DNA from: Hyphomonas sp.
Lineage (GTDB): Bacteria; Pseudomonadota; Alphaproteobacteria; Caulobacterales; Hyphomonadaceae
DNA length: 64,000 bases
Direction: 5' to 3'
NCBI RefSeq assembly: GCF_022844445.1
Contig: NZ_JALHLS010000002.1
Span: 186,001 to 250,000 of the forward strand
The notes below the pieces were generated by a model. It ran no database searches, had not been told where the DNA came from, and saw nothing but the letters and a program-made list of their open reading frames with translations. Positions 28,974-46,407 of this stretch are shown piece after piece. Made by a program: the position numbers and the translations under genes. Every line of letters starts with the position of its first letter. Within the stretch, counting starts at the first letter, position 1.

Positions 28974-31900
28974 TCAGTGGAAGTCCCGGCTGGGCGGGAT
29001 GATGCGTACACTTCGGGGGTGACTTTCGCCTGCTGACCAGACGGTAGGGGCCTGGCGCTCGGCGACGGGCCGGGCCACTTCATCGGACCGGGAGATAACG
29101 CCTTTCAATGGGTCGCGCAGCGCATCTTCCGAAAGAAGGTTGAGTTCTGCCGTACAGTCGATCAATTGCTCGGCGACAATATGTGTCACGCCGTCCGCAG
29201 TTTGCACCCGGCCTTTTACATGAACGATCCGAGACCGCATGACGACGGCCCTGAAGCGTTCCATGACCCGCGGCCAGACGACGAGGTTGGCAATTCCGGT
29301 TTCGTCTTCCAGCGTGATGAAGACGACGCCGCTTGCGGTGCCCGGGCGTTGGCGAACGAGGATGACGCCGGATGTCTGGACACGCCGGCCGTCCGGCTGA
29401 CTGGCGGCGTCTTTTGTGGACAGGATACCGCGCTTCTCATGCAGGCTCCGCAGGAAATGCATAGGATGGTTCTTCAGGGAAAGGCGGGTCGTCTGATAAT
29501 CCTGGAGAACATGTTCCGAGGGCGGAATTTGCGGCAAGGCAACGGCAGCCTCGTCGCCCTGTTCGGCAAGGCCTGTCGCTGAAAACAGCGGCAGGGCGTA
29601 GCTTGGCGCTTCGCCCCGCACTTTCCAGAGGGCGTTGCGGCGTGAGAGGCCCATGGAGCAGAAGGCGTCTGCGGCGGCGAGACGCTCCAGCACGCTCCTG
29701 GACAAGCCGCTGCGGCGCATAAGCTCATCCGGTGTGGCGTATCCGCCGCCGCGCCGTTCCATCAGGTGTTCCATGTGGGCTTGCGACAATCCATCGACCT
29801 GCCGGAAACCGAGGCGCACCGCGAATTTGCCTTCGCGGTCTTCCATGGGCTCAAGAGTATGGTCCCAGTCGGAATAGTTCACATCCACGGGACGTACTTC
29901 GACGCCATGCTCCTGCGCGTCGCGGACGATCTGCGCCGGCGCATAGAATCCCATGGGCTGGCTGTTCAGAAGCGCGGCGCAGAAAATCTCCGGGTGATGA
30001 CATTTGATCCATGAGGAAACGTAGACGAGCAAGGCAAAGGAGGCCGCGTGGCTTTCCGGGAAGCCGTATTCGCCGAAGCCCTTGATCTGATCGAAGCAGG
30101 ACTTTGCAAAGATGGGATCATACCCGCGTGCGATCATCCGGCCCACCAGCATGTCCTCATAATTGCGGATCGTGCCAACATTACGGAACGTGGCCATGGC
30201 GCGGCGCAGGCCGTTGACTTCTTCTGAAGTGAAGCGGGCAGCGTCTATTGCAATCTGCATGGCCTGTTCCTGGAACAGGGGGACACCCAGCGTTCTTTCC
30301 AGGATCTGCTGGAGTTCATCCGCCGGGCCGTACTCTGGCGCGGGGCTGGGATAATTCACCTGCTCCAGCTTTTTCCGCCGCCGGAGGTAGGGGTGTACCA
30401 TGTTGCCCTGAATGGGGCCGGGGCGAACGATTGCGACCTCGATCACCAGATCGTAGAAAAGGCGCGGCCGGAGGCGCGGAAGCATTGCCATCTGCGCGCG
30501 GCTTTCGACCTGAAAGACGCCGATGCTGTCACCCTTGCAGAGCATGTCATAAGTAGCGGTGTCGTCTGGTGGAATGCTGGCGAGAGTATGCCGGATCCCT
30601 TTGTGACTTTCGAGCATAGCAAATGCTTTGCGTATGCAAGTCAGCATGCCGAGGGCCAGCACATCCACTTTCATGATGCCCAGCGCGTCGATGTCATCCT
30701 TGTCCCATTCGATGAAGGTGCGTTGCTCCATCGCCGCATTGCCGATGGGCACGGTTTCGATCAACGGCCCGCGTGTCAGCACGAATCCGCCGACATGTTG
30801 GGAAAGATGACGCGGGAAGCCCAGAAGTTGCCGTGCCAACTGGACGGCCCGGCGGATGAGCGGATTGGCAGGGTCAAGACCTGCCTCGGTAATCCGCTTA
30901 TCGGGCAGATGGTCGCTCCAGCTGCCCCAAACGCCTTTTGCCAGCGCAGATGCAGTATCTTCGCTCAGGCCGAGCGCCTTGCAGACATCGCGGATGGCGG
31001 AGCGGGCGCGATAGCAGATGACTGTCGCCGCAAGAGCGGCGCGATGGCGACCATATCGGTCGTATACATGCTGGATCACTTCTTCGCGTCGTTCGTGCTC
31101 AAAATCGACGTCGATATCCGGAGGCTCTTTCCTGTCCGGTGAAAGGAAACGGGCAAACAGGAGTTTCGTGAGGGTCGGATCAACACTTGTGACGCCGAGG
31201 CAGTAACACACGGCAGAGTTCGCTGCCGATCCGCGCCCCTGGCAGAGGATGTTTTGCGCACGAGCCCAGTGGACGATGTCATGTACAGTGAGGAAGTAGG
31301 GTGCATAGGAGAGGTCCGCGATGGTTTTAAGTTCCGTACGGATCTGCGCCGAAACCTTCTCCGGTATGCCGCCGGGATAGCGCCAGTCTGCGCCCGCCCA
31401 CGCCAGTTTTTCGAGATGGGCCTGCGGGGTGGAACCCGGCGGCACGGGTTCATCCGGATACTCGTAGGACAGGGCGTCGAGGCTGAACTGGCAGCGCTCC
31501 ATGACTTCAAGCGTGCGGGCAATAGCTGGCTCAAAACCATTGAACAGGCGGGCCATTTCTGCAGGGCTCTTCAGGTGGCGTTCTGCATTTGCTTCCAAGC
31601 GGAAACCGGCGGTGTCCAGCGTACAGTGCTCGCGGATACAGGTCAGCACATCCTGTAGGGGCCGGCGCTCGGGTGCGTGATAGAGTATATCATTCACGGC
31701 GATTATCGGCGCGCTCGCCAGAGCGCCAGTCTGCGCCAACCGCGCGAGGCGTTCGCGGTTACGGCCAGAATAGGCGGCCCGCGCAGCGAGAAATGTGCGG
31801 CCCGGCGCCGCTGAAGCGATCATGCTGAGGGTGTCCGCAAAACAAGAGGATGGCTGTTCCGGAGGGATGACGATCAGGACTTGTCCTTCGCTGGCACCCA

Positions 31901-32243
31901 GGATGTCCGAAAGCGTGATGAGGCATTCCCCCTTGGCGGCGTCTTCCTTCATCTTGCCTTCGGAAAGAAGGCGGGATAGCCGACCATAAGCGGCGCGGTC
32001 TGTCGGGTAGGCGATGATCTCCGGTCCTTCAATCGGCACAAGCCGGGCGCCGACCAGAAGCCGAAGACCAGCGTCCTTTGCCGCGACATGCGCCCGGACG
32101 ACCCCGGCGAGCGTGTTCCTGTCGGCGATCCCGATCGCCGCGATTCCAAGCTCAGCTGCGCGTTTGACAAGTTCTGCGGCATGACTCGCTCCGCGCAGGA
32201 ATGAGAAGTTCGTCATCACGGCAAGTTCGGCATAGGCGGTCAC
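28974..32243 (-). CDS. dnaE2: Error-prone DNA polymerase DnaE2
   Basis: The protein is 1089 residues from a GTG at 32243 that overlaps the imuB stop (GTGA). It shows the N-terminal PHP domain ([35 protein letters not shown]), the C-family polymerase core with the metal-binding aspartates in [17 protein letters not shown], and a C-terminal OB-fold ([26 protein letters not shown]). Length and order match DnaE2 rather than the replicative DnaE1 (about 1150-1200 aa). In alphaproteobacteria it forms the SOS mutasome with ImuA and ImuB and carries out lesion bypass. The upstream start at 32267 would lengthen the overlap with imuB. Expression likely depends on the LexA box before imuA. Confidence 0.96.
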   Translation of the reverse strand: [1089 protein letters not shown]

Positions 32244-33841
32244 GCGAACAATCCCTGTACGAACCAATCGGGAGCTGTGCCGCGTCTGTCACCATAAATC
32301 CCCTCGCGGAACACCCAGTAACGCCGCCCATCCGCATCTTCGACCCGGTAATAGTCCCGCGCGCGCGGCAGGGACTTCGCTTCGCCTGCTCGCGGCGGAA
32401 AGTAGGTCCACCATTCCGGGGCGATGCGCTCCGGTCCATCCGCCCGAACGACGCGGCGTACAACCCGCCGCCAAACGAAACTCAGGGGCGGTCCGTCGGG
32501 CACCTGTGCCATCACCTCGACCCGCTCAGCGCGGTCGAACACGCGGATAGGGCGCAAGCCCTTCATGCCGGCGGCCGGAAGCACGCCGTCCATGATTTTC
32601 CCCGCATACGGCCAGGTCTCTTCGGCCAGGTCCACCGGATGGCGCGCCACCGGCACGGTGACCGTGACACTCCCTTCGCCAAGGCGGGCATTGATCCTGT
32701 CTGCCAGGGCAGCAAGCGCGGTTTCATCGATGTCGTTTTGCGCCAGCTCGCCTGAAAGAGGCCGGCTGCCGGCCGTCATGGCGGCGGTCCGGAAGGCTTC
32801 GATCTGCAACAGATCTATCCCGAAGCCTGGATCTATGCTCTCCGCTTTATCACCGAACAGGCGCAAGACATGATCGGGGGTGCGAACAGGCAACGCCGCA
32901 TTGACGCGAAGGGTCAGGACTTCACCATCCGAACGAAAGGCACGCAAAACAAAGCTTTGTGCGCCCAATCCTGCTGCATCAAGCGCTCTGCAGAGCTTGC
33001 CTGTAAGCAGGGTGAGGCCGGCATGGATCCCCGCGCTGTCCGCCAGGGGCTCCGGGCAGGGCAGGGATTCGATATAATCCGATGGCGGACGGAAGGGTTC
33101 GAAAGGTTCATTACGGTAACCAAGGGCCTGATCCAGTCGCATGCAGACAGCGTCTGCTGCTTCGCGCGAATGAAACCGCCGTGCGAGCGCCTTGCGGTCG
33201 ATCTCGTAGAGCTGCCCAATCCGGGTCAGGCCGAAGCGCCGCAGCAGGGTAAACGCCGCATCGGACAGGCGCAGCTGGCTGACCGGGAGGTTCTCAAGGC
33301 CTTCCTGTTCGCTTCCGGACTGCAGGATGGCGGGTGTGTCCTCCAGGGCTTCTCCGCGAGCAAGGGCGTAGGCGGCGCCCCGCGTGCCCGCAAAGGCCAG
33401 GCGATGACCGTATCCCGCCGCCTTCAGACGCAGAGAAAGTTCTGCCGCCATGCAAGCCTCGCCGCCGAAGAGGTGGGAACAGCCGGTTACTTCGAGGATA
33501 AGCCCATCGTTCCCATCCAGCGCGACAAGCGGAGAGAAACGCACAAGCCAGCTCGCCAGCGCCTTCAGGCTCTCTTCATCACTTTCGCGATCCACTTCCT
33601 CGGCAGTCAGGTCTGGCAATGTGGCGCGCGCATCGGCAAGACGCAGGCCTGGCTGCAGACTGGAAGTGCGTGCGGCCTCATTTGTCGCGGCGACAATCAG
33701 TCCGTGAGCAGATTTTTCATAGAGGACGAAAGGGCGAGCCTTAGCCGGCCTTTCGGCCAGGGAGTCCGTAGGATGGCGCCGCACGCGTCGCAGCCGATCC
33801 AGCGACCATTCCGGAAACCACACTGAGAGATAGCGTCTCAT
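32240..33841 (-). CDS. imuB: ImuB, Y-family polymerase-like mutasome protein
   Basis: I set the start at the ATG at 33841 (533 residues) because MRRYLSVWFPEWSLDRLRR is the typical ImuB N-terminus; the frame is open upstream but lies in imuA. The palm and finger regions of a DinB-like fold are present (GLRLADARATLPDL, VALDGNDGLILEVTGCSHLFGGE), but the N-terminal catalytic Asp of active Y-family enzymes is replaced in SVWFPEW. This is known for ImuB, which acts as a non-catalytic hub binding the beta clamp and DnaE2. It overlaps imuA by 101 bases and dnaE2 by four. Confidence 0.93.
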   Translation of the reverse strand: MRRYLSVWFPEWSLDRLRRVRRHPTDSLAERPAKARPFVLYEKSAHGLIVAATNEAARTSSLQPGLRLADARATLPDLTAEEVDRESDEESLKALASWLVRFSPLVALDGNDGLILEVTGCSHLFGGEACMAAELSLRLKAAGYGHRLAFAGTRGAAYALARGEALEDTPAILQSGSEQEGLENLPVSQLRLSDAAFTLLRRFGLTRIGQLYEIDRKALARRFHSREAADAVCMRLDQALGYRNEPFEPFRPPSDYIESLPCPEPLADSAGIHAGLTLLTGKLCRALDAAGLGAQSFVLRAFRSDGEVLTLRVNAALPVRTPDHVLRLFGDKAESIDPGFGIDLLQIEAFRTAAMTAGSRPLSGELAQNDIDETALAALADRINARLGEGSVTVTVPVARHPVDLAEETWPYAGKIMDGVLPAAGMKGLRPIRVFDRAERVEVMAQVPDGPPLSFVWRRVVRRVVRADGPERIAPEWWTYFPPRAGEAKSLPRARDYYRVEDADGRRYWVFREGIYGDRRGTAPDWFVQGLFA

Positions 33842-34472
33842 CGTTCCACTCAAGATCAAAAGTCCTGCCGACAGCAGAAGGGTTGAGGCGGCAACGTTCG
33901 AGGTTGGCGCGCCAGCGAGCCCGGCCCGGAGCTCTTGGATCATAAGGATTAGGGGCGGAGGGGCGTGCGGTGATCCGCCAGCGTGTAGCGGCTGCCGTCG
34001 CGCCCTCACGGCCGTACGGAAGCATTAAAGTGACGGGCACGCCATGACGTCCCGATGCCAGTGCCAATCGCCTTGTGGCTGTAAAATCGGCGGCGTCCAC
34101 CTCGGCAATGACATGACTGACCGCGCCCGAAACGACGGCTTCTTCTGTGGCCCACAACACGTCACTGGCATGTTTGGCCACAAGGCTGAGACGCCGGGCA
34201 TTTCTGCTGGCCATCTCTCGCAGGGCTGTCTCGGCAAGGCTTCCCGCGTCTCGCCGCGTGGTGGCTTGAGAAATCCATAACAAGGCCCCGAAGCCCGAAG
34301 GCCAGGCCGCACTCAGCGCAAAGCCTGTCGCGGCGGCTATATCGCCATAAGCCCCTTCCACCACTTCATGCAGGCCCCGTGCACCCAGTTCATATGGGAA
34401 AGCGGCAGTGCGTGTCCTTGAAGTGTTCACCGGGCCGATCAGGCCTTTGGATATAAGTGTGCTAAGGTCCAT
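33741..34472 (-). CDS. imuA: ImuA, SOS mutagenesis RecA/SulA-like protein
   Basis: The 243-residue protein resembles the ImuA branch of the RecA-like fold: ELGARGLHEVVEGAYGDIAAATGFAL, then LLWISQATTRRDAGSL and LWATEEAVVSG, with a final part (RARWRANLERCRLNPSA, FDLEWNDETLSLS) seen in ImuA proteins. It is the first gene of the LexA-controlled imuA-imuB-dnaE2 operon. A LexA box lies 76 bases before the ATG. The last 30 or so residues run into the imuB coding region in another frame and look poorly conserved, so the functional end may be earlier. Confidence 0.9.
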   Translation of the reverse strand: MDLSTLISKGLIGPVNTSRTRTAAFPYELGARGLHEVVEGAYGDIAAATGFALSAAWPSGFGALLWISQATTRRDAGSLAETALREMASRNARRLSLVAKHASDVLWATEEAVVSGAVSHVIAEVDAADFTATRRLALASGRHGVPVTLMLPYGREGATAAATRWRITARPSAPNPYDPRAPGRARWRANLERCRLNPSAVGRTFDLEWNDETLSLSVVSGMVAGSAATRAAPSYGLPGRKAG

Positions 34473-34562: not shown

Positions 34563-35149
34563 ATGCTTTGTGATTTTAACGGGATGCGATCTCCCGTGCG
34601 TGCGTCAGGCTGTGGAAAGCCTCGCCGCCTTGTGGCCGGCCATGTTTCCCGCGTTACGGCCGCATGGCCCGCCGTGATGGCAGGCGGCGGCCCGAATCTG
34701 AGCAGTCGCGCACGAACGGCCCGTTTGCCGTATTGAAGGTGCGCGCCAGAACTTCTGGCATGCACCTCAGTCCGCTCGTCTGTGCACTACCCTTTCTTTG
34801 CGGGGGACTACCGGGAAGAGGGGCATCCCGATCCTCTCTGATCACGTTTTCGCCAATGTGGCGCCGATCCGGTAGCTTGCAGCCAGACCGCCAGCGACCG
34901 GAGCGGTCGCTAATTTGGATCCGCCGTGCCGGGCTGGCTGCACGTCAAACAGCAATGGCCGGGACCGGGCGACGACAAAGCCTTCTAGGTCCATGAGTTC
35001 GCCGCAGATCGCCTCACTGTCCGGAAGGTGAGCGTGCCGGCGCCAATGTGTTCGTTAACTTAAAACTTTGGCATGCCGTTCGCTTTCGGGTATGCGAAAC
35101 GCGCCAATCAGATGACGGCTGGCACGATAGGGCTGGGGGGGGTAGTCGC
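34563..35149. other. 587-base stretch without a supported gene
   Basis: Several overlapping frames exist on both strands but none has protein-like composition or a ribosome site. An 8-bp perfect hairpin, AGCGACCG-GAG-CGGTCGCT, lies at 34893-34911 without a T-run. A run of eight G (35136-35143) just before the membrane-protein start may act as its ribosome site. Confidence 0.5.
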
Positions 35150-36880
35150 ATGATCGATCAACTGTTCCAGAATGGCTACAAGCGGGAACATGCTGACACG
35201 CGGGCCAGAACACCCTCGGTGCTTTGGGCTGCCGGCACCTCGCTGATCCTGTTTCCGGTGCTCGTCTTCGCCCTGACCACACTCTGGTTCGTGGTGGGCG
35301 GTGCCATCACACCGGACTTTGGCCGGATCGTCCTCGTTGTCTGCGCGGCTATAGCGCTCTACGTGCCGGGTAGGCTGTTTCCCGAAACGTCGCGGGTTGC
35401 GCCATTCCTCGCCCTTGGACTGGGCGTGCTCGCGGCGCTCGTCGCCTCCCTGCTTCACGACACATCGATCGATGGCCAGCACTACCACTTTCAGGCCATC
35501 TATGCCCTGGCAGAGGGATGGAACCCGGTTCACAAGCCGGCGCCGCCGCCCATTGTCGGCGATGCCATAACGCCGTGGGCGGTGCATTATCCGAGGGCTG
35601 TCTGGCTTCTCTCGGCGAACGTCCTTGCCGCGGGCCTTCCGCTGGCAATGGTCAAACTGTCACTCCTGCTTGTCCTGTTTGCAGCCGCTGCGCTTGTGGG
35701 CGGCGCCTTGTTCCGCGCCGGCTATTCCTGGCTGTTCACTCTGGCCCTGACCTGTGCGGCCGTCCTGAACCCGATCGTCCTGGCGCAGATCTGGACGAGC
35801 ATGAACGACGGCATCCTGGCGCTCTGCATACTGATCTTTGTCGTCTCGATGGTTACATGGATCGAGCAGGAGAACAGGAGTTTTCTGGTTTCTGGTGTGG
35901 CCGCCATGATGCTCGCCCTCAACCTGAAATTTTCAGCCATCCCGACATTCGTGATCCTGTGCGCCTTCGCGTGCGCTGGCGCCTATCTGATGCGCGGCCG
36001 CCCCAAGGCGTATACCGCTGCGGCCATTCTTTTCGTTCCCGCCTTCGCAGCGATCTTCCTTCTGGGGTGGTCGCCCTACATGCAGAATTTCCTCGAGCAT
36101 GGTCACATTTTCCATCCGCTTATGGGAAAGGATGCGATCGACATCATGATCGGTGACGGGACTGCCTACGACAATACGCCGAATGTCCTGAAGGAAATGT
36201 CTGCGGCCGAGCGATTCTTCTTTTCGCTCTTTTCAGAAACGCATGCGGGTTATGGCACGCTGCCGCATTTGAAAATTCCCTTTACTGTGTCGCCTGAAGA
36301 GCTGCGTGCTGCGGGCGGCGTGGATGTCCGGCTCGCTGGATTCGGCCCGTTCTTCTCAGGCAGCATCTTGCTCACCCTGGGTACAGCGATCCTTCTGTTT
36401 GTCCGGCGGGCGGAATGTGGCCCGGCGGCGCGGGTCCTTTTGTTCGTTGCCGCGGGGCTTCTCGTCTCGGTAATCCTGATGCCGCAGAACTGGTGGGCGA
36501 GGTATGTTCCGCAGTTCTGGTTTGTGCCGGTCTGTGTGGCGGCCGCCGCGCTGACTGACAGCAGTCGGCTCGCCCGGTCTTTGGGCGCGGCCATCGTTGC
36601 GGTCAGTCTGGCAGGCTCACTGGCAGTAGGCGGCGCCTCAAGCTGGCTTTCGGCAAATCGCAGCCTGGAAGCGGCAGCGCAAATCGAGCGCCTTGCAGAA
36701 ACGGGCACGCGCTACTGCGTCAATCCCGATATGGCCGAGTCCCGCATCTTCATCATGCAGAACGCCGGGATCGAGGCGGTGTATACACCTGTCGAAGCGA
36801 TTGCGTGCGATGCGCCAGAAGGTTTTGACGGGTACGGTCCCGACCGTACCGGCGGCTTGATCTGCGCTTGCCCGGCCTGA
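35150..36880 (+). CDS. Multi-span membrane protein, GT-C glycosyltransferase-like
   Basis: The protein is 576 residues from the ATG at 35150; the frame is open further upstream but has no membrane or start features. About ten hydrophobic segments are visible between residues 20 and 510. The early loop after the third segment contains DTSIDGQHYHFQAIYALAEGWNP, the place where GT-C enzymes carry their acidic active-site residues, and SMNDGILALCILIF resembles another conserved loop. The C-terminal 65 residues (RYCVNPDMAESRIFIMQNAG) are soluble, probably periplasmic. I infer a polyprenyl-phosphate-sugar-dependent glycosyltransferase or a related membrane protein, but no specific family is certain. 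The surrounding genes support a glycan role. Confidence 0.7.
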   Translation: MIDQLFQNGYKREHADTRARTPSVLWAAGTSLILFPVLVFALTTLWFVVGGAITPDFGRIVLVVCAAIALYVPGRLFPETSRVAPFLALGLGVLAALVASLLHDTSIDGQHYHFQAIYALAEGWNPVHKPAPPPIVGDAITPWAVHYPRAVWLLSANVLAAGLPLAMVKLSLLLVLFAAAALVGGALFRAGYSWLFTLALTCAAVLNPIVLAQIWTSMNDGILALCILIFVVSMVTWIEQENRSFLVSGVAAMMLALNLKFSAIPTFVILCAFACAGAYLMRGRPKAYTAAAILFVPAFAAIFLLGWSPYMQNFLEHGHIFHPLMGKDAIDIMIGDGTAYDNTPNVLKEMSAAERFFFSLFSETHAGYGTLPHLKIPFTVSPEELRAAGGVDVRLAGFGPFFSGSILLTLGTAILLFVRRAECGPAARVLLFVAAGLLVSVILMPQNWWARYVPQFWFVPVCVAAAALTDSSRLARSLGAAIVAVSLAGSLAVGGASSWLSANRSLEAAAQIERLAETGTRYCVNPDMAESRIFIMQNAGIEAVYTPVEAIACDAPEGFDGYGPDRTGGLICACPA

Positions 36881-36955: not shown

Positions 36956-38497
36956 CTATCGGCTGAGCGCCGCCTGGCATGCACGCGCTGTCAATGCCAT
37001 GATGGTGAGCGTCGGGTTCTGCGTGCCTTGTGAGGGCAGGGCGGCACCATCGGTAACGTACAGGCCGGGCATTGCCCAGCATTCATTGTGGGGCGTCAGC
37101 ACGGAAGTTGCGGGATCCTTGCCGATGCGGGCGCCGCCGCATTCGTGTACGGACGTTCCCGGGTTTGCAGGCCCTGCCGGCCGAACCAGGACCTTCGCGC
37201 CGATACCCTCGAACAATTCGTCGAGTGCTCCGGAGATCGAGTCTGCCAGCGCCCGCTCGGGCTCACCCCACTGGGTGTCGATCGACAGAACGGGCTGCCC
37301 CCAGCGGTCCTTGCGCTGTTTTGACAGGGAGACGCGTCCCTGCAGGGTCTGAGAGGTTTCACCAAAGCCCACGGCTGTCGTCCATGCACCGGCAGGATTG
37401 GCGGTCGCATAGAGTTGAACGCCGAATCCGCGCCGGGTGGCATCGCCGCCCTTGCGAAGGTCAAACCGGGGGAGATAGAGGCAGCGCCCTGGCTCCGCCG
37501 GAGGCGTGATGGGCAGGGGCGGGCTCAGACCTTCGGCCTTCAGCATGACGTGATCACTGAGATGAAGACCCAGCGCCGGCAACTGATCTGTCAACGGGCC
37601 GGACGCATTGGACGAGTTCAGGAGTATGCGTGTCGATTCCAGGGATGAGGCGCACAGGAAAACCAGCGGCGCATTGGCCGAATGGGTTTGACCGTCTGCG
37701 GGGTCGAGCCATTCGACACCGGCCGCGCGGCCATCTGCGGCGTGCAGGATGCGCTGCGCAAGGGCGCTGGGGCGCAGGGTCAGCCGGCCGGTGGCAGCTG
37801 CAATCCCGGCGAAATCGACCGGTGGCGCGTACCGGCTGAGCATGACCCGCGCCTCGGGCCAGCGCTGTGCAAATGTCTCCAATAGCTGCCGTTCCGAGAT
37901 GTTCGGGCTGATCGGATGGGTGACCAGGCTGTCGGGGATGAAGGGGATGCCCTCTCGCCCGCCGAACAGGCCAATCCGGCTTTCAACCTTCTCGTACCAG
38001 GGCGCGAGCTCTTCGATCCCGAACGGCCAGGGACTGGGGCCGTCATTCTTCGGTCCGACATCATATTCGCTGAGCCGGTAGTACTGCCGCCCGTGGCCCG
38101 GCACGACCATCCGCCCGCCGACACCGTGGGACCGGATCCAGGTGAAGGGCTTGCCTTGCGGGGTCTCGTAGGGGTGGTCCCGGTCATCGACAAAGCTGCC
38201 GGGCTTTTGCACCCAAGCAAAGCACTCTGTCTGCACAGGTTGGCGAAGGCGTCCTGCAGCGCGCAGCAATCGTGTCCCCGCATTTATTAGCCTGGGGTGC
38301 AGGATGCCTGCAAGCCGCGGGTCGGATATCGCGCCGATGGAAGTCGACAGGGCCTTGCTGAACGGCTTTTTCCAGAATGACTGCTCGCGGCCTGCATCGA
38401 GCAGAAGCACCGAGAGCCCGGATTCGCAAAGCAGGGCGGCTGCGAGCCCTCCTGAAGCGCCGGCACCAACAACGATGGCGTCATGGTTTTTGCTCAT
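36956..38497 (-). CDS. GMC-family FAD-dependent oxidoreductase
   Basis: The protein is 513 residues with the N-terminal FAD motif AIVVGAGASGGLAAALLCESG (G11, G13, G16), GGRMVVPGHGRQYYRLSEYD in the flavin-contact region and the typical GMC C-terminus: SVHECGGARIGKDP, VTDGAALPSQGTQNPTLTIMALTAR. The His in VHECGG and the Asn in GTQNPT fill the catalytic pair positions. Enzymes of this group oxidise alcohols or sugars. It is divergent from the aldo/keto reductase gene, and both are beside glycan-type genes, suggesting that they modify a sugar or polyol precursor; that link is inferred. No signal peptide is seen. Confidence 0.9.
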   Translation of the reverse strand: MSKNHDAIVVGAGASGGLAAALLCESGLSVLLLDAGREQSFWKKPFSKALSTSIGAISDPRLAGILHPRLINAGTRLLRAAGRLRQPVQTECFAWVQKPGSFVDDRDHPYETPQGKPFTWIRSHGVGGRMVVPGHGRQYYRLSEYDVGPKNDGPSPWPFGIEELAPWYEKVESRIGLFGGREGIPFIPDSLVTHPISPNISERQLLETFAQRWPEARVMLSRYAPPVDFAGIAAATGRLTLRPSALAQRILHAADGRAAGVEWLDPADGQTHSANAPLVFLCASSLESTRILLNSSNASGPLTDQLPALGLHLSDHVMLKAEGLSPPLPITPPAEPGRCLYLPRFDLRKGGDATRRGFGVQLYATANPAGAWTTAVGFGETSQTLQGRVSLSKQRKDRWGQPVLSIDTQWGEPERALADSISGALDELFEGIGAKVLVRPAGPANPGTSVHECGGARIGKDPATSVLTPHNECWAMPGLYVTDGAALPSQGTQNPTLTIMALTARACQAALSR

Positions 38498-38632
38498 CTG
38501 GGATAGTCACTTTCGCGTTTTACCTTCAGCGGAAGGTCTGCAAGCAAGCGGGCAGGGTCGATCGGCTTCTGTAAGACTTTGACTATACGATCTTGATTGA
38601 CATGAGATTTATCTCCTCGTCTTTGCTCGAGG

Positions 38633-39628
38633 ATGCAGGATCAAGACGCCCAGACTATCAGCGCCCGCCTTTTTGCTAAACGGTCCGGCCCCCTCGGCTT
38701 CGGAACTGGGTTGTTGCACCATGCCGGCAGCCCGTCCAACGCAGTTCGCCTGCTCCGGGACGCGCACGATCAGGGAATCTCCTATTTCGATACAGCCCGG
38801 CTCTATGCGGACGGAGAGGCGGAGAAGCTCCTCGGCGCGGCTTTTTCACATATGCGCAACGACATCATAATCACGACGAAGGTGGGCATCCTGCCGGTCC
38901 GCCGGGGTCTGGCTACGCGCGCGTCTGGAAAGGCTGCGGCGGTTCTCCGGCGCATTCCGCCTCTGAAGGCAGTGGTTCCGGAGCCCGTGGTGCAACATCC
39001 GGAGTTCGGCGTTTTCGACCCCAGGCGCATGCAACAAAGCCTTGAGACCAGTCTGAAATTTCTGCGGACGGATCATGTAGATGCGCTGTTGCTGCATGAA
39101 TGTACGCTTGCAGACGTGCGCAAGGATGAGGTTCGGGCGTTCCTGGAGCAGGCTGTCAAATCGGGCAAAGCCCGCATGTACGGTGTTGCGCCCTCGGCGC
39201 ACGAAATGCTTGCCATTGCTAAGAGCGGCGAGCCTTTTGGAGCCGTTGCGCAGTTCGACACGGCCATCCGCGAACACTTTCCGCTCAGCGGCGAAGGAAA
39301 GCCGCCGCTTATCGTCACCCACTCCTGTCTCGGGCAGGACTTCAGAGCCATAGTTAACCGGCTGGGGTCAGATGCCGGCTTGCGGCAGCGTTGGCTCCAG
39401 GCTGTTGGCGTCGATGCAGACGACACAGCCCAAGTTGCGCAGGCCTTCCTGGCACACGCGCTGGCCCAGAACCCGGAAGGGCTTGTGCTGTTTTCGACCA
39501 CGCGGCCTGAACGGCTAAAGGCCAATCTGGCGGCAGAGAGTTGGCTGGAGTCGCCGGACCGGTGCGCGGAGGCGGGCAAGCTCATTGCAGAGTTTCGCGC
39601 GAACGAGGGAGCCTCCCGGCAAAGCTAG
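38633..39628 (+). CDS. Aldo/keto reductase
   Basis: The 331-residue TIM-barrel protein has the AKR tetrad: Asp53 and Tyr58 in YFDTARLYADG, Lys83 in IITTKVGIL and His155 in ALLLHECTL. It would reduce a carbonyl with NADPH. It is divergent from the GMC oxidoreductase with a 135-base gap, so the two may share regulation and act on the same metabolite in opposite redox directions. The C-terminal region is shorter than in some AKRs but complete. Substrate cannot be deduced. Confidence 0.88.
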   Translation: MQDQDAQTISARLFAKRSGPLGFGTGLLHHAGSPSNAVRLLRDAHDQGISYFDTARLYADGEAEKLLGAAFSHMRNDIIITTKVGILPVRRGLATRASGKAAAVLRRIPPLKAVVPEPVVQHPEFGVFDPRRMQQSLETSLKFLRTDHVDALLLHECTLADVRKDEVRAFLEQAVKSGKARMYGVAPSAHEMLAIAKSGEPFGAVAQFDTAIREHFPLSGEGKPPLIVTHSCLGQDFRAIVNRLGSDAGLRQRWLQAVGVDADDTAQVAQAFLAHALAQNPEGLVLFSTTRPERLKANLAAESWLESPDRCAEAGKLIAEFRANEGASRQS

Positions 39629-40059: not shown

Positions 40060-41529
40060 ATGCTTAACACGCCGATCGCCAACGAAGCCGCCGGAGAGGC
40101 AGACGCTGTTCCGCTCGTGCTGGACCTTGATGGCACGCTAATTCGGACGGATTCGCTGATCGAGCAGGGCTTCGCACTGCTTCGCCGCAATCCCTTTGCA
40201 GTTTTTAAGCTGATTGGCTGGCTGCTGGCCGGCCGGGTGATGCTCAAGCAACATCTGGCGAATGCCGTTTCGCTCGATCCAGAATTCATCCCGGTCAACG
40301 AAGACCTCGTGGCTTTCGCCGAAGAGCAAGCGGCCAAGGGCCGCACGATCGTGTTGGCAACGGCCGCGCACAAGAACACTGCTCAGGTTTTCAAGCAGCG
40401 GTTTTCCTTTATCTCGGACGTGATTGCGACGGAAGGTCAGGTGAACCTGAAGGGCAAGGTGAAAGCCGACGCGCTGGCGGCACGTTTTCCGCAGGGCTTC
40501 GACTATGCAGGCGACAGCCGCCCTGACCTCGAGGTCTGGAAGCGCGCGCGCAATGCGATCGTCGTTGGGGCGTCCGGATCGACCCTTCGCCGCGCCCGCA
40601 AGAGTGCAAACGTCACCGAGGTGTTCAAGCGCCCGGGCAGTTTCAAAGCCCTGATCAAATGCCTGCGCCCGCACCAGTGGGCCAAGAACGTTCTCGTCGT
40701 GGTGCCTGCAATTCTGTCCGGCCGAATTATAGATCCCGACGCGATCCTCCCGCTTGTACTCGCGTTCTTTGCCTTGTCGCTGACAGCGTCGGCGACCTAT
40801 GTGTTCAACGACATCTGGGATCTGCAGGACGACCGGGCGCACTGGTCGAAGCGCCGGCGCCCGTTGGCGAGCGGGACACTGTCTCTGCCGGCAGGCATCA
40901 TCGGCGCCCTGATCTGCCTCGCTGCCGGTTTGGCACTGGCACTGTTGGCTGGGCTGGCCGTGCTGCAATGGGTGCTCGTCTACGTGGTTGTGACGATGAG
41001 CTATTCGCTCTTCCTGAAGCGCAAGGTGATCCACGATGCCGTGACGCTGGCCGGGCTTTTCACGCTTCGTCTGGTCGTCGGCATGGTGGCGGTGGCAGCT
41101 GTGCCGTCTCCATGGCTGTTTGTCTTCGCCATGTTCTTTTTCACCTCCCTGGCGTTTGCGAAACGCCACACCGAGATCGCACGCGTGATCGAGCGCGGCG
41201 GCTTCTGGGTCAATGGCCGCGGTTACCGGGCGTCAGACCTGCCGCTGGTCCTTGCCGCCGGAATTTCGAGTTCGGTCGCCGCCGTTGTCATCATGGTGCT
41301 CTACATCATCGAGGATGCGCACCAGCAGAGCTTTATCAAGAATGGTGATTGGCTATGGGCGCTGCCGCCGATGATCTTCATGATCTCGAGCCGGATCTGG
41401 ATCACCTGCCAGCGCGGTGAACTGGATGATGATCCGGTTGTGTTCGTGGTAAAGGACAGGGTGTGTCTCGCTTATGCCGCCCTGGCTGGGATATGCTTCT
41501 TCTTCGCCTGGTTCGGCGTTCCGCTCTGA
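40060..41529 (+). CDS. HAD phosphatase - UbiA prenyltransferase fusion (decaprenyl-phosphate phosphoribosyltransferase-like)
   Basis: The protein is 489 residues. Residues 15-195 are a HAD phosphatase with the nucleophile motif VLDLDGTLIRTD (Asp22, Asp24), TIVLATAAHK and a DYAGDSRPDLEVW acidic loop. Residues 205-489 are a UbiA-type membrane prenyltransferase with the polyprenyl-binding motif VFNDIWDLQDD (Asn250-Asp258) and LRPHQWAKN, the start shared with decaprenyl-phosphate 5-phosphoribosyltransferases such as the mycobacterial DPPR synthase. That enzyme makes DPPR from phosphoribosyl pyrophosphate and decaprenyl phosphate; its product needs a phosphatase to continue, so the fused HAD domain may dephosphorylate it to decaprenyl-phosphoribose. 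About eight membrane segments are visible. The following GtrA and GT genes fit a glycan lipid-carrier pathway. Confidence 0.85.
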   Translation: MLNTPIANEAAGEADAVPLVLDLDGTLIRTDSLIEQGFALLRRNPFAVFKLIGWLLAGRVMLKQHLANAVSLDPEFIPVNEDLVAFAEEQAAKGRTIVLATAAHKNTAQVFKQRFSFISDVIATEGQVNLKGKVKADALAARFPQGFDYAGDSRPDLEVWKRARNAIVVGASGSTLRRARKSANVTEVFKRPGSFKALIKCLRPHQWAKNVLVVVPAILSGRIIDPDAILPLVLAFFALSLTASATYVFNDIWDLQDDRAHWSKRRRPLASGTLSLPAGIIGALICLAAGLALALLAGLAVLQWVLVYVVVTMSYSLFLKRKVIHDAVTLAGLFTLRLVVGMVAVAAVPSPWLFVFAMFFFTSLAFAKRHTEIARVIERGGFWVNGRGYRASDLPLVLAAGISSSVAAVVIMVLYIIEDAHQQSFIKNGDWLWALPPMIFMISSRIWITCQRGELDDDPVVFVVKDRVCLAYAALAGICFFFAWFGVPL

Positions 41530-41548
41530 CCGCGCAGATGAGGCCCAG

Positions 41549-41959
41549 ATGACCCTGCCTTTCAAACTCTCGAAAGCGACGGTCCAGTTCGCTGTACGGT
41601 ATACAATTACCGGCCTGGCTGTAACGGCGGTATATGTCGGGCTCTATTTCCTTTTGAGGAATTTGCTCACGCTGTCTCCCGCTTTCGCATCAGGCATCTC
41701 GATGACGAGCGCCGTGGTGTTCCAGTATGTCATGCACAGTGTGTTCACGTTCCAGCGCAAGTGGGCTGACGGCGGCCAGCTCGTGAAGTTCGTTGTGAGC
41801 ATTTTCATAAGCGTCATTGTTGCGGACATCTTCGTTGCGCGCCTCGGCGTGGCACTGAACGTTCCCGAGCCGCTGCGTCTGCTTGCGGTGGTCGTGACCC
41901 TTCCGATCGTGAATTTCCTGTTCTTCACCTTCTGGGTCTACGCAGCAAAGCGCGACTAG
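41549..41959 (+). CDS. GtrA-like membrane protein
   Basis: The protein is 136 residues from the ATG at 41549, 17 bases after the previous stop. It has four hydrophobic segments, QFAVRYTITGLAVTAVYVGLYFLL being the first, the conserved Asn-free variant of the second, and VNFLFFTFWVYAAKRD at the end, which is the typical GtrA terminus with the aromatic pair before a basic tail. GtrA proteins are thought to flip or assist transfer of polyprenyl-linked sugars. It is part of the run with the HAD-UbiA fusion, which supports translocation of a decaprenyl-linked sugar. Confidence 0.88.
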   Translation: MTLPFKLSKATVQFAVRYTITGLAVTAVYVGLYFLLRNLLTLSPAFASGISMTSAVVFQYVMHSVFTFQRKWADGGQLVKFVVSIFISVIVADIFVARLGVALNVPEPLRLLAVVVTLPIVNFLFFTFWVYAAKRD

Positions 41960-42242
41960 AAGGTCAGACAGGACATCTCCTCAAACAGGTTTTCGGCATT
42001 GGCCGTGGATTGGTCGGCACGACTGCTTCGTCAACGAACTCTGGCTTGCGGCTTGCGCTTTTGGAGTTGCTGCGCTGTGGTTCGCGATCGAGCGCTGGTC
42101 TTGGCGTGAACCTTGCTGAGGAGTGCGAGGCCTGAAGCTGACGGGCTGCGGAGTATTGGGCGCGCGTTGACTTTGCGCCGCCAAGACAATACCGGGACAG
42201 GCCGGGGCTTCTCACAGAGACAGCGAGAGCAGGGAGGTGCTG

Positions 42243-43541
42243 GTGCATTCGCTTACGGTAAACGGCGTTCATGCCGTGTTCGCGATCGTTGGTTTTCTGC
42301 TCATCCATCGTCTCGCTGGATCGCCGCGGTATGCCGCACTTCTATGGCCCTTCACCGTTTTGTGGGGCGCAGCGACTGCTGGTCTCATCTTCATAAACAC
42401 ACAGCCCTCAATGGAGTTTGTCTTCTGGGACTTCAAGGAATGCTATTGGCTGGCCGGGAAACTCGTCCTTGAGGGGCCTCAGTCCCTGGCCGGCGCGTAT
42501 AGCAGTGAAGACCTTGTGTTCGTCAATCTGCCCATCGTGGCTTATCTGTTCGCGCCTTTTGCCCTGCTGCCCGACATGCCGGCGGCAATCGTCATTACGC
42601 TGATCGGTGTCGGCATTGTTGGTCTGATCTGGCGCCTGCTGGTGGATATGTTCAGTCTCGATACGCGGGAAAGCGCATTGCTGTTTCTCGCGATATGCGC
42701 ATTCGGGCCTTTGCTGTACTCATTCAAGGTCGGCAATACATCGCATTTTGTCCTTGCGCTGATCCTTGGCGGCCTGGCAATGGTCCGTTCCGGCAAGGGC
42801 TTTGTAGCGGGCGCGCTGTTTGGCGTTGCTGCTGTCATCAAGCCGGCTCTTGTGCTTGTCGGTATCCTTTACTTCCTGCGGGGTCGCTGGAGCGTGGTAG
42901 CAGGCGGCGCCGCCGTCCTGGCAGGATCGGCTGCGCTCTCCTTGCTGATCTTTGGATGGGACATGCATGTGCTTTGGTACGAAACGTCGATCGCGCCTTA
43001 TGCCGGCAACCCTGTTCCTGCTTATGTAAATCAGACGCTGGCAGGAATGGTGGCTCGCTACGAACTGGGCGGCCCGTTCGGTCACGACTACTCGGCCCAT
43101 ACGCTTTCCCCCGTTGGCCGCGCCGCCGCAATCGGCATGTCGCTGGCGCTGCTTGCGGGCGTGGTATTTGCTGCATATCAGTCGCGTCGGTTGTTGCGGG
43201 CAGACGCAAGCGACATTGAAGTCGAAGTATTGATCGCGGTATCATTTACCATGACGGTCTCGTCCCTGTCCTGGGCGCACTATCATGTCTGGCTGCTGCC
43301 CGCGCTGGTTCTGCTATGGGTGAAGTCGCGGCCGGGCCAGGCGCTTTCCGGGCTTCGCTGGCCGCTGATCGGCACCTATTCGCTGCTGGCAGGCACCGCT
43401 TTTGTCAGTCACTCCATGACACTTGGTCGTTTCGGGGCGCTCTCCAACTTGATTGTGTCCCACTGGCTGATCGGCACGATAGCCCTGATCGTACTTCTGG
43501 CGATCGTGCGGGCGAGGAGAGATTATCCAACTCAAACATGA
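42243..43541 (+). CDS. GT87-like (DUF2029) polyprenol-dependent glycosyltransferase
   Basis: The protein is 432 residues from GTG 42243, six bases after AGGGAGG; the GTG at 42237 overlaps that ribosome site and is less likely. About ten hydrophobic segments are present. The loop FWDFKECYWLAGKLVLEG after the second segment holds the acidic residues (Asp and Glu) where GT87 mannosyltransferases carry their active site, and NLPIVAYLFAPFALLP and VIKPALVLVGILYFL are typical blocks of the family. It would use a polyprenyl-phosphate sugar on the periplasmic face. It follows GtrA by 283 bases with no other gene. Confidence 0.85.
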   Translation: MHSLTVNGVHAVFAIVGFLLIHRLAGSPRYAALLWPFTVLWGAATAGLIFINTQPSMEFVFWDFKECYWLAGKLVLEGPQSLAGAYSSEDLVFVNLPIVAYLFAPFALLPDMPAAIVITLIGVGIVGLIWRLLVDMFSLDTRESALLFLAICAFGPLLYSFKVGNTSHFVLALILGGLAMVRSGKGFVAGALFGVAAVIKPALVLVGILYFLRGRWSVVAGGAAVLAGSAALSLLIFGWDMHVLWYETSIAPYAGNPVPAYVNQTLAGMVARYELGGPFGHDYSAHTLSPVGRAAAIGMSLALLAGVVFAAYQSRRLLRADASDIEVEVLIAVSFTMTVSSLSWAHYHVWLLPALVLLWVKSRPGQALSGLRWPLIGTYSLLAGTAFVSHSMTLGRFGALSNLIVSHWLIGTIALIVLLAIVRARRDYPTQT

Positions 43542-43730
43542 AGTGAGCAGGAAATAGGCTATGGCATTGAAAGCCTGCTGTTTTCTGGTCTGCTTCTTGC
43601 TTGTATGTCGCTGGACCGGTCACCTGAAGGGCGTCTGGTAGGCGGATGTCGAGGCCGGAATGTTTGACCCCGGCGGCCTCGAAAAGGCTGCCGGGAAAAT
43701 GAAATCGCCGAAGTACTGGATAACTGCGGG

Positions 43731-45272
43731 ATGGCACATACCGATCAAAGCAGATCGCCAACTTCAGTGACGGCAGGCGCCAAGGCGCTCCTGGCGTGGG
43801 GGATTCTGCGCGCGCCACTCATCCTCGTCATTCTGTTCCTTTCCCGGGAAACAATCTCGACGCTGCAGGTTTTTGACGGTGAAGCCCTCACTGTACGGAT
43901 CATTGACCTGATGAGCCTGCCAGCTTCCCGCGGCATGCTGTTTCTGCTGCTTGCCGCTATGTTCGGCGGTCTGGTGATCATCTTGCGTCGTTGGTTTCCG
44001 GCGCGGGAATACTTGATTCTGCTTGGTGCGGTCGCTCTGACGACGGTGATCTTGTTCGAGATCACACAGACGCCGCTCCGGCATGCCGCAATCCCCGTCA
44101 TCCTTGCCGCGACAAATTTCCTGCCTGCAGCATTCCTTCAGCGCCATCTTAATGGACGAATTCTGGCTGTCGGCGTGGGCTTTACAGAGGCGCTGGCTAT
44201 CCGGCGACACATCTCCTGGCTAGCAGGCTTGGCGAACTGGAGTGCGGCGGCTCAGCGAGTCTGCGGCATCCTGGGTTGGGGGCTGGCCGTGTCCCTCGTC
44301 AGCGCCAGTATGGTGGCGCTGATCAAAGGTGAGCGGCTTGTCCCCGTTGAGCAGGCGTTGCGCACGCCGAACACAGTCGGGATCATCATGAAGGGCAGCA
44401 TCAACGGTCTTTCGCTGGAGCCCGTTTCGCGTCGGCTTTACGTTACAGGACATGGCCTTGAGAACATTGTCGAGGTTGACATAGACACCCCGGGCAAGGC
44501 CTCTCGCACGTCTGAAGTTGTGAGTGGCGGCGCCCAGGGAATTTTTCTCGATGCTCAAGCCGGAGAGCTGAGTGTCTTTAACGGTGACACAAAACAGCTT
44601 CTTTTCATTGATGCGGAAACCCTTTCGCTGAATCGGTCCATTGACGTCAAGCTACTCGCTTCCGGCGACCCCTGGATATCCTTCGATCCGATCTCGGATA
44701 CGATCGCACTCGTTTCCGAGGCTGATCTCGACGACGGCGTTGCGTTTGTGTTGCTGGATCATGCGACCGGTGATGTGCTCGACACGCGGGAACTTGATGC
44801 CGGAAACATCCTGAAGCATCCGGAGAAGCCGCTGCTCTATCTAAGTTTCTTCAGGCGAAATCCGGAAGTCCTCATCTATGACATGACGAAGCGCGACATA
44901 ATTGCGAGGTCGCCTGCTCCGGCGCGGCTGGATCGCATGATCCTGATGCCCGCAGCCAATGAACTGCTGGTGACATCGCCGGTGAAATCCGAAATCCTAC
45001 GGCTGGACGCTGACACATTGGCAACCAAAGGGGCGATCAAGGGGCCGTTCGGGGTGCGGACGCTAGCCGTCGACAATGAACGCCAACTTTTGTTCGCGGG
45101 CAGTTTTGTCACGGGCCAGGTTCGCGTGATCGACACCAACACCTGGCGCAATGTGGAGACCGTATATCTCGGGCCTTGGCTGCGCTCGATCGAACTCGAT
45201 GTGGCTACTGGCACGGCCTATGTTTCATCGAATGGTGCTCTTTATAGTTGGGCCTATGACCAGGATCGATGA
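43731..45272 (+). CDS. Membrane protein with C-terminal beta-propeller (YncE/NHL-like)
   Basis: The protein is 513 residues. The N-terminal 210 residues have about five hydrophobic segments (ILRAPLILVILFLS, GMLFLLLAAMFGGLVIIL, YLILLGAVALTTVILFEI and others). From 220 to 513 the sequence repeats blades of 35 to 45 residues (LSLEPVSRRLYVTGHGLENIVEVDI, ELSVFNGDTKQLLFIDAETL, LYLSFFRRNPEVLIYDM, LLFAGSFVTGQVRVIDTNTW), the look of a YncE-like seven-bladed propeller, likely periplasmic. I do not know a described family joining these. It lies between the GT87-like and acyltransferase genes and overlaps the latter by 17 bases, so it belongs to the glycan locus. Confidence 0.75.
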   Translation: MAHTDQSRSPTSVTAGAKALLAWGILRAPLILVILFLSRETISTLQVFDGEALTVRIIDLMSLPASRGMLFLLLAAMFGGLVIILRRWFPAREYLILLGAVALTTVILFEITQTPLRHAAIPVILAATNFLPAAFLQRHLNGRILAVGVGFTEALAIRRHISWLAGLANWSAAAQRVCGILGWGLAVSLVSASMVALIKGERLVPVEQALRTPNTVGIIMKGSINGLSLEPVSRRLYVTGHGLENIVEVDIDTPGKASRTSEVVSGGAQGIFLDAQAGELSVFNGDTKQLLFIDAETLSLNRSIDVKLLASGDPWISFDPISDTIALVSEADLDDGVAFVLLDHATGDVLDTRELDAGNILKHPEKPLLYLSFFRRNPEVLIYDMTKRDIIARSPAPARLDRMILMPAANELLVTSPVKSEILRLDADTLATKGAIKGPFGVRTLAVDNERQLLFAGSFVTGQVRVIDTNTWRNVETVYLGPWLRSIELDVATGTAYVSSNGALYSWAYDQDR

Positions 45273-46407
45273 TACTTTGACTGACGAAACGCGGTCTGCG
45301 AACAGCGCCCCATCGATGACCGCAGCGTCAGTCTGGTCGGGGCACATCCTTGCGCTGGATGGCATACGCGGGCTCGGCGTTATCCTCGTCCTGTTCTACC
45401 ACTACGGCTCAAGCGCCATGGCGCTGGGCCTCGGCAGTTCGTTGCTCAAGGTGACCGGCATCGGCTGGTCGGGCGTGGACCTTTTCTTTGTGCTGTCCGG
45501 TTTCCTGATCACCGGACTGCTTTATGACGCCAAGGGAAAGCAGAACTACTTCAAGAACTTCTATGCCCGCCGTACACTGAGGATCTTTCCCCTCTACTAC
45601 TTTGCGGCCGTAGTCGTGATTGTTCTGGCGGTGATAACGGGGTTTGGAATTCTCGGCGGTTCGAATCCGATCTGGATCTTGCTGTATGTTGGAAACTTCC
45701 AGATGGCGATCGAGGGCGGGGGGAGCATTCTCGACCACTTCTGGTCCCTTGCTATCGAAGAGCAGTTCTATCTCGTCTGGCCACTGATCGTTCTTAGCTT
45801 GTCACGGCGCAAACTGATGATTGTGGCGGCTGCGATGATCGTGATCTCGCCTTTGGTCCGCACGCTTCTGGTGCTGAATGATGCGCCCGATCTTGCAGTT
45901 TATGTGCTGACGCCGGCGCGGATGGACGGGCTGGCGATGGGCGCGCTTATTGCTCTAGCCGTGCGAGGCCCGAGTGGCATTGCGCCGCTTGTCCCGTGGG
46001 CATGGCGTTTTGGCGCCATGGCGGCGGCTGCCTTCCTGACCATTGTCATCTTGCGGCGAGACTTTTCGACAGAAGATGCCGTGATCCTGACGGCCGGGAT
46101 CTCGTGCCTGACCATCATGTATGCGAGCCTCCTTGTCCTTTCCCTGACCTTCCGGCCGCTGACCTCCGTGATGGAGTTGCCCGTGATGCGCTGGTTCGGA
46201 AAATACAGTTATGGCCTCTACGTGTGGCATCCGATCGTCAACATGCTCCTTTTGCACTCCCCGCTGACCGCGCAGTTTGGCGCAGACACCAAGTTGGAGG
46301 TGGTTCTGCTTTTGGCGCTCGCCTTCACGATCAGCGTCCTGGTAACCCTCGCGAGCTACAGGTTCCTGGAGGCACCGTTGCTGCGCCTGAAAAGCCGGTT
46401 CCAGTAG
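45256..46407 (+). CDS. Acyltransferase 3 family (OafA/NodX-like O-acyltransferase)
   Basis: The protein is 383 residues from the ATG at 45256, inside the end of the previous gene. Typical AT3 features are ILALDGIRGLGVILVLFYHYG (the catalytic His in the first membrane segment), GWSGVDLFFVLSGFLITGLL, YARRTLRIFPLYYF and the EEQFYLVWPL block, followed by about seven further membrane segments and FGKYSYGLYVWHPI near the end. Such enzymes move acyl groups, often acetyl, to sugars of the envelope. In this locus it would decorate the glycan made by the preceding genes. Confidence 0.92.
   Translation: MTRIDDTLTDETRSANSAPSMTAASVWSGHILALDGIRGLGVILVLFYHYGSSAMALGLGSSLLKVTGIGWSGVDLFFVLSGFLITGLLYDAKGKQNYFKNFYARRTLRIFPLYYFAAVVVIVLAVITGFGILGGSNPIWILLYVGNFQMAIEGGGSILDHFWSLAIEEQFYLVWPLIVLSLSRRKLMIVAAAMIVISPLVRTLLVLNDAPDLAVYVLTPARMDGLAMGALIALAVRGPSGIAPLVPWAWRFGAMAAAAFLTIVILRRDFSTEDAVILTAGISCLTIMYASLLVLSLTFRPLTSVMELPVMRWFGKYSYGLYVWHPIVNMLLLHSPLTAQFGADTKLEVVLLLALAFTISVLVTLASYRFLEAPLLRLKSRFQ

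Follow-up and report, generated by a model that had tools for sequence, protein, structure and literature searches.

A probable ribose-type polyprenyl-phosphate-pentofuranose locus with a HAD-UbiA fusion in Hyphomonas

Gene content of the locus

We analysed a 64,000-nucleotide stretch of contig NZ_JALHLS010000002.1 from the marine bacterium Hyphomonas sp. (positions 186,001 to 250,000), here called the window, and searched 42 Hyphomonas genomes, its own among them, for relatives of its genes. The locus contains a gene for a HAD-UbiA fusion, followed 3' on the same strand by genes for a GtrA-family protein, a GT87 glycosyltransferase, a membrane/propeller protein and an acyltransferase (Table 1). 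All genes named in a sequence-only reading of this DNA were open frames where that reading had placed them, and Pfam matched their families. The 513-aa propeller protein and the polytopic membrane protein had been absent from it. From the sequence itself, the start of the GtrA gene is better placed at 41549, only 19 bases past the stop codon of the fusion, and that of the acyltransferase gene at about 45256. The 41-47 kb part of the window has a G+C content of 57.5-59.4%, and its flanks are mostly at 60-65%. Promoter predictions were near the level of shuffled sequence (3 vs 2.2), as were terminators (13 vs 9.6). The phage records yielded one partial UbiA match.

Table 1. Features of the locus, with positions in the window
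Feature	Position	Strand	Family or structure match	Remark
Polytopic membrane protein, 576-610 aa (start-dependent)	35048..36880	+		second candidate for the transfer step
GMC and AKR oxidoreductases, divergent	36956-39628		PF05199 (70.2 bits), PF00248 (89.7 bits)	upstream of the fusion
HAD-UbiA fusion, 489 aa	40060..41529	+	PF12710, PF01040; NF006088; PDB 8j8j	
GtrA-family membrane protein, 136 aa	41549..41959	+	PF04138 (53.6 bits)	candidate flippase of a charged lipid
GT87 (GT-C type) glycosyltransferase, 434 aa	42237..43541	+	PF09594 (91.8 bits)	first candidate for the transfer step
513-aa protein	43731..45272	+		N-terminal membrane segments, C-terminal propeller-like part
Acyltransferase-3 family protein	45256..46407	+	PF01757 (Acyl_transf_3, 97.9 bits)	candidate for glycan O-acylation

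The N-terminal HAD domain of the fusion lies barely above its Pfam cut-off (27.4 bits against 27), and the C-terminal UbiA domain, in the same 489-aa frame, scores 76 bits. The NCBIfam family NF006088, which is the named HAD-UbiA family, spans residues 10-485 as a single model with 609.9 bits (cut-off 351). Relatives at E 1e-25 or better were found in 18 of the 42 Hyphomonas genomes, counting its own. Given this whole-length coverage and the number of genomes with relatives, the fusion is no frame artefact, and the fused HAD and UbiA of the sequence-only reading are confirmed as one protein. The closest named relatives are those of H. polymorpha (79%) and Hyphomonas sp. CY54-11-8 (72%). The protein is predicted to be a polyprenyl-phosphate 5-phosphoribosyltransferase joined to a phosphoribose phosphatase. 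One of the 18 genomes, G027 (locus L093, G027:C8), carries HAD and UbiA in separate frames with DprE1 alongside.

Predicted activity of the HAD-UbiA fusion

The UbiA half was compared with models of several UbiA classes. It scored 137 bits with the decaprenyl-phosphate phosphoribosyltransferase model, short of that model's cut-off of 234, as against 38 bits with haem o synthase and 26 bits with 4-hydroxybenzoate octaprenyltransferase, and its top match among solved structures was 8j8j (E 1.7e-19). These scores and the structural match do not point to a quinone- or haem-like active site, which had been named beforehand as the observation that would speak against a phosphoribosyltransferase. Nine residues (D22, K135, D156, N250, D251, D254, D258, R369 and E372) were identical in all 68 rows of an alignment of fusions, the window counted. 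Of 82 loci, 68 were kept as rows: a locus that gave no match, a pair of duplicates (L006 and L007) and 11 loci with matches over fewer than 430 residues were dropped, and surplus N-terminal residues were trimmed.

Membranes with ORF15 of Citrobacter youngae convert farnesyl phosphate and PRPP to farnesyl-phosphate-ribose (PMC11127046). The residues mutated were the HAD nucleophile D18 together with N247, D248, D251, D255, R366 and E369; the four loop-II residues mattered, and R366A and E369A stayed active in vivo (PMC11127046). The D18A variant gave mainly the 5-phosphate product and some activity was left (PMC11127046), which leaves room for another phosphatase besides the HAD domain. Residues D22, N250, D251, D254, D258, R369 and E372 of the window protein are the counterparts of this set, with identical spacing in the UbiA part when judged by residue numbers rather than by alignment. 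Family, residues and the analogy with ORF15 all support the earlier proposal that one HAD-UbiA protein carries out two successive steps. We consider it very likely that the fusion transfers phosphoribose to polyprenyl phosphate and then removes the 5'-phosphate. This two-step activity is not new, having been published for ORF15 in 2024 (PMC11127046).

Distribution of DprE1 and probable identity of the sugar

The DprE1 of another Hyphomonas species was used as a query, and no orthologue was found in the window's own genome (assembly rated 99.98% complete). The sole match there, at 26%, covered the FAD-binding part of a different protein some 35 kb away; this protein is also the genome's single match to the ALO family. 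In a tree of 68 fusions, in which long branches meet, the Hyphomonas proteins are spread over several separate lineages, and the clade of the window comprises seven Hyphomonas rows. None of the seven has DprE1 in its locus, and the six other clade genomes had no DprE1 at E 1e-25. Across the whole tree DprE1 was present in the fetched locus in 25 rows and absent in 43, a number that may include misses where loci end at contig ends. At E 1e-25 or better, DprE1 was detected in seven of the 42 Hyphomonas genomes. Six of them have it at a distance of about 3 kb or less from a fusion, and the seventh, G027, has it beside the separate-frame HAD and UbiA.

Arabinose requires DprE1/DprE2 or a substitute. 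Since no DprE1 was found in the genome, the clade genomes or the clade loci, ribose is the simplest reading, and we regard it as the likely sugar in preference to another pentose. The sequence-only reading had left the choice between an arabinose- and a ribose-type lipid-carrier pathway; the epimerase search that it recommended found no orthologue as far as DprE1 is concerned, which favours its ribose branch and counts against arabinose made by the known route.

GtrA and the candidate transferases

The GtrA gene lies directly 3' of the fusion in all seven clade members, the window's own genome included, although clade genomes are closely related and such 7/7 counts amount to few independent events. 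The same order was also found in Devosia and Leisingera plasmids. GtrA is near the fusion in at least 11 of the 68 rows, four more GtrA genes having been found in a later search. In some of the loci, the automatic choice of genes had settled on incorrect overlapping frames.

A Pfam search placed GT87 proteins in nine of the 42 Hyphomonas genomes, namely all seven clade genomes and two of the 35 others, both without the fusion. Within the clade, GT87 is 0.8-7.1 kb from the fusion in every genome (7/7), and the closest copy is on the opposite strand in five of the seven. Among the tree rows GT87 occurred in 7/68, all from the window clade, using a model that was derived from Hyphomonas sequences and favours them, so that the genus-wide Pfam search is the fairer count. 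A second GT87 is encoded on a different contig of the window's own genome. The window GT87 is 67, 61 and 40% identical to the three clade GT87s compared and 24% to that of G004, and 76% identical to the GT87 of G021, where there is no fusion. Because this nearest relative sits beside a GtrB-type gene, the window GT87 may use a hexose donor. Its match to the solved mannosyltransferase 9dm5 was weak (E 0.035). AftC is a member of GT87. On this evidence we put the assignment of GT87 as the transferase somewhat short of an even chance.

The polytopic membrane protein matched neither a Pfam nor an NCBIfam family at E 0.1. G008, G022 and G034 each have a relative of 55-58% identity at a distance of about 8.6 kb from the fusion; a 35% relative in G015 is far from the fusion, and G030 has a short 39% piece. 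An AlphaFold model of the 576-aa form was unusable (mean pLDDT 41.5, two-row alignment), and a sequence search of solved structures with this form returned nothing useful.

The propeller protein and the acyltransferase

The 513-aa protein belongs to no Pfam family. Its hydropathy segments fall inside residues 16-199. It scored 37 bits with a YncE-type propeller model, far below the cut-off of 400, and its matches to solved structures were weak propeller matches (best 1l0q, E 0.0037). The AlphaFold model of this protein was likewise unusable (mean pLDDT 45.5, two-row alignment). Relatives were found in three of the 42 Hyphomonas genomes, its own counted, and the acyltransferase gene adjoins in all three. 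The corresponding acyltransferases of G021 and G006 are 81% and 60% identical to that of the window, each beside a gene for the 513-aa protein.

Of the six other clade loci, five contain a group of acylation genes (MBOAT, AMP ligase, reductase and others); G006 has the propeller/acyltransferase pair instead. In L006 and L079-L083, genes for an MBOAT protein, a 388-aa protein without a Pfam family, a carrier protein, an AMP ligase, a FabG-like reductase and GT87 were observed beside the fusion. These neighbours would form a dedicated acyl-decoration set, judging by families that were identified in L006 and, for some of the genes, in L079.

Proposed pathway and alternative readings

We propose that the locus encodes the known three-component pentofuranosylation pathway in a ribose-type form without an epimerase, and on the gene content described above we think this probable. 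The fusion would transfer a phosphoribosyl group to polyprenyl phosphate, and its HAD domain would strip the 5'-phosphate to leave polyprenyl-phosphate-ribofuranose, most likely the product that serves periplasmic ribosylation of a glycan. The adjacent GtrA may then help the lipid to flip. In the last and weakest step, a GT-C enzyme would move the ribofuranose onto a surface glycan in the periplasm, with GT87 the most likely enzyme or else the polytopic membrane protein, and the acyltransferase may then acylate the ribosylated glycan.

The ribofuranose could instead be epimerised to arabinofuranose or xylofuranose by an enzyme encoded elsewhere, such as an unrelated C2 or C3 epimerase. The precedents are that the 25 DprE1-bearing tree rows include Hyphomonas loci of other lineages, and that xylofuranose in C. 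youngae O2 depends on one SDR epimerase (PMC11127046). No DprE1 orthologue was found in the window's own genome or its clade, however, and all seven Hyphomonas genomes that do have DprE1 keep it no more than about 3 kb from the HAD-UbiA genes; we consider an epimerase at a distance improbable. A stand-in for DprE1/DprE2 much closer by would be the GMC/AKR pair, a flavoenzyme and a reductase encoded divergently just upstream of the fusion, which the sequence-only reading had counted among the pathway genes. The pair is present in seven of the 42 genomes, five of the seven in the clade as against two of the 35 others (Fisher p 0.0005, a value uncorrected for kinship and, with the 35 genomes interrelated, not readable as a probability). 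Distant GMC relatives also occur near other-lineage fusions in four further rows of the 68 (L038, L085, L086 and L088), and Devosia has an AKR 2.1 kb past its fusion, although this AKR is of another subtype and the model of the window's AKR does not match it. Against such a role, the pair adjoins the fusion in the window's own genome only and in none of the other Hyphomonas genomes among the 42 searched. No GMC match lay within the 10 kb surrounding the fusion in G008, G015, G022 and G034; the pair is 0.9 Mb from the fusion in G015 and on separate contigs in G008, G022 and G034. G026 and G030 have the pair with no fusion seen, while in G004 and G006 the fusion is present and the pair absent. 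The five genomes that carry fusion and pair together stand next to one another in the tree. The neighbours of the pair in G008, G015, G022 and G030 match by size and order, and those in G022 are GAF, carboxylesterase, DUF4129, MoxR-type AAA, DUF58, SpoIIM and RDD genes (the surroundings are cut by a contig end in G034, and the neighbours differ in G026). The two genes look like bystanders, and an unrelated replacement for DprE1/DprE2 is very improbable. The full scheme, in which GMC would oxidise a ring hydroxyl of polyprenyl-phosphate-ribofuranose, AKR would restore it in the other configuration and the GT87 cassette would transfer a different pentofuranose, is more improbable still.

A further alternative leaves the sugar aside and divides the locus: GT87, the propeller protein, the acyltransferase and perhaps GtrA would make up a Gtr-type system that transfers a hexose, and the fusion would feed something else. 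In G021 the GT87-propeller-acyltransferase cassette (76, 65 and 81%) adjoins a GtrB-type GT2 gene and there is no fusion; in G006 GtrA and a GtrB-type gene sit between the fusion and the cassette, and the window's own genome encodes a GtrB relative (54%) on a different contig. The cassette may thus have come from a hexose system or still be one. Two GtrB-type query proteins, on the other hand, found no match in the window, where GtrA is spaced so closely behind the fusion, and the fusion-GtrA order recurs in the clade and in the Devosia and Leisingera plasmids. We regard the divided locus as unlikely but as deserving real weight beside the ribose pathway.

The GMC proteins of L085, L086 and L088, which lie near an other-lineage fusion in G014 and G031, are larger than that of the window and 25-26% identical to it.

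Relation to known systems

The locus appears to be a good representative of a known kind, in that it probably serves to make a polyprenyl-phosphate-pentofuranose of the ribose type. Its closest parallel is the C. youngae O1 system (Kelly et al. 2024), in which ORF15 likewise has an N-terminal HAD domain, a C-terminal UbiA domain and the same UbiA residues at the same spacing, and in which ribose is made without an epimerase gene (PMC11127046). The two differ in the later components: the C. youngae flippase, its function predicted there, is a MATE-family, EmrE-like protein and the transferase is GT136 (PMC11127046), whereas the Hyphomonas locus has GtrA and, as candidates for transfer, GT87 or the polytopic membrane protein.

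The mycobacterial decaprenyl-phosphate-arabinose pathway (Rv3806c, Rv3807c, DprE1 and DprE2) shares a UbiA-type phosphoribosyltransferase, solved as 8j8j. Its phosphatase, however, is the separate and unrelated Rv3807c in place of a fused HAD domain (PMC11127046), and it includes DprE1, of which no orthologue was found in the Hyphomonas genome. The noeCHOP genes of Azorhizobium caulinodans, for D-arabinosylation of Nod factor, represent another alphaproteobacterial polyprenyl-phosphate-pentose pathway (PMC5080398). By its published description, noeCHOP makes arabinose (PMC5080398); in the Hyphomonas genome no DprE1 orthologue was found. The GtrA/GtrB/Gtr systems of O-antigen glucosylation also combine a small GtrA-type membrane protein with a GT-C transferase, but their donor is made by GtrB (PMC11127046), whereas that of Hyphomonas would be made from PRPP, by homology, by a UbiA-type enzyme.

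Proof of the HAD-UbiA enzyme in this type of pathway dates only from 2024, and the locus contributes a HAD-UbiA/GtrA/GT87 arrangement that apparently does without an epimerase. Hyphomonas offers a natural comparison between ribose-type loci and the DprE1/DprE2 arabinose version in other species. The GT87 encoded near the fusion can be tested as a candidate pentofuranosyltransferase that does not belong to GT136.

A plasmid of Devosia neptuniae (L116:8953-12135) carries three genes in a row, for the fusion, for GtrA and for a hydrophobic-looking protein of 408 aa. The last has no Pfam family above cut-off, and the fetched stretch contained no DprE1 match; the trio is possibly a minimal three-gene system. 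Elsewhere in the window, at 28974-34472, the frames read, from their translations and sizes, like an imuA/imuB/dnaE2 mutagenesis set.
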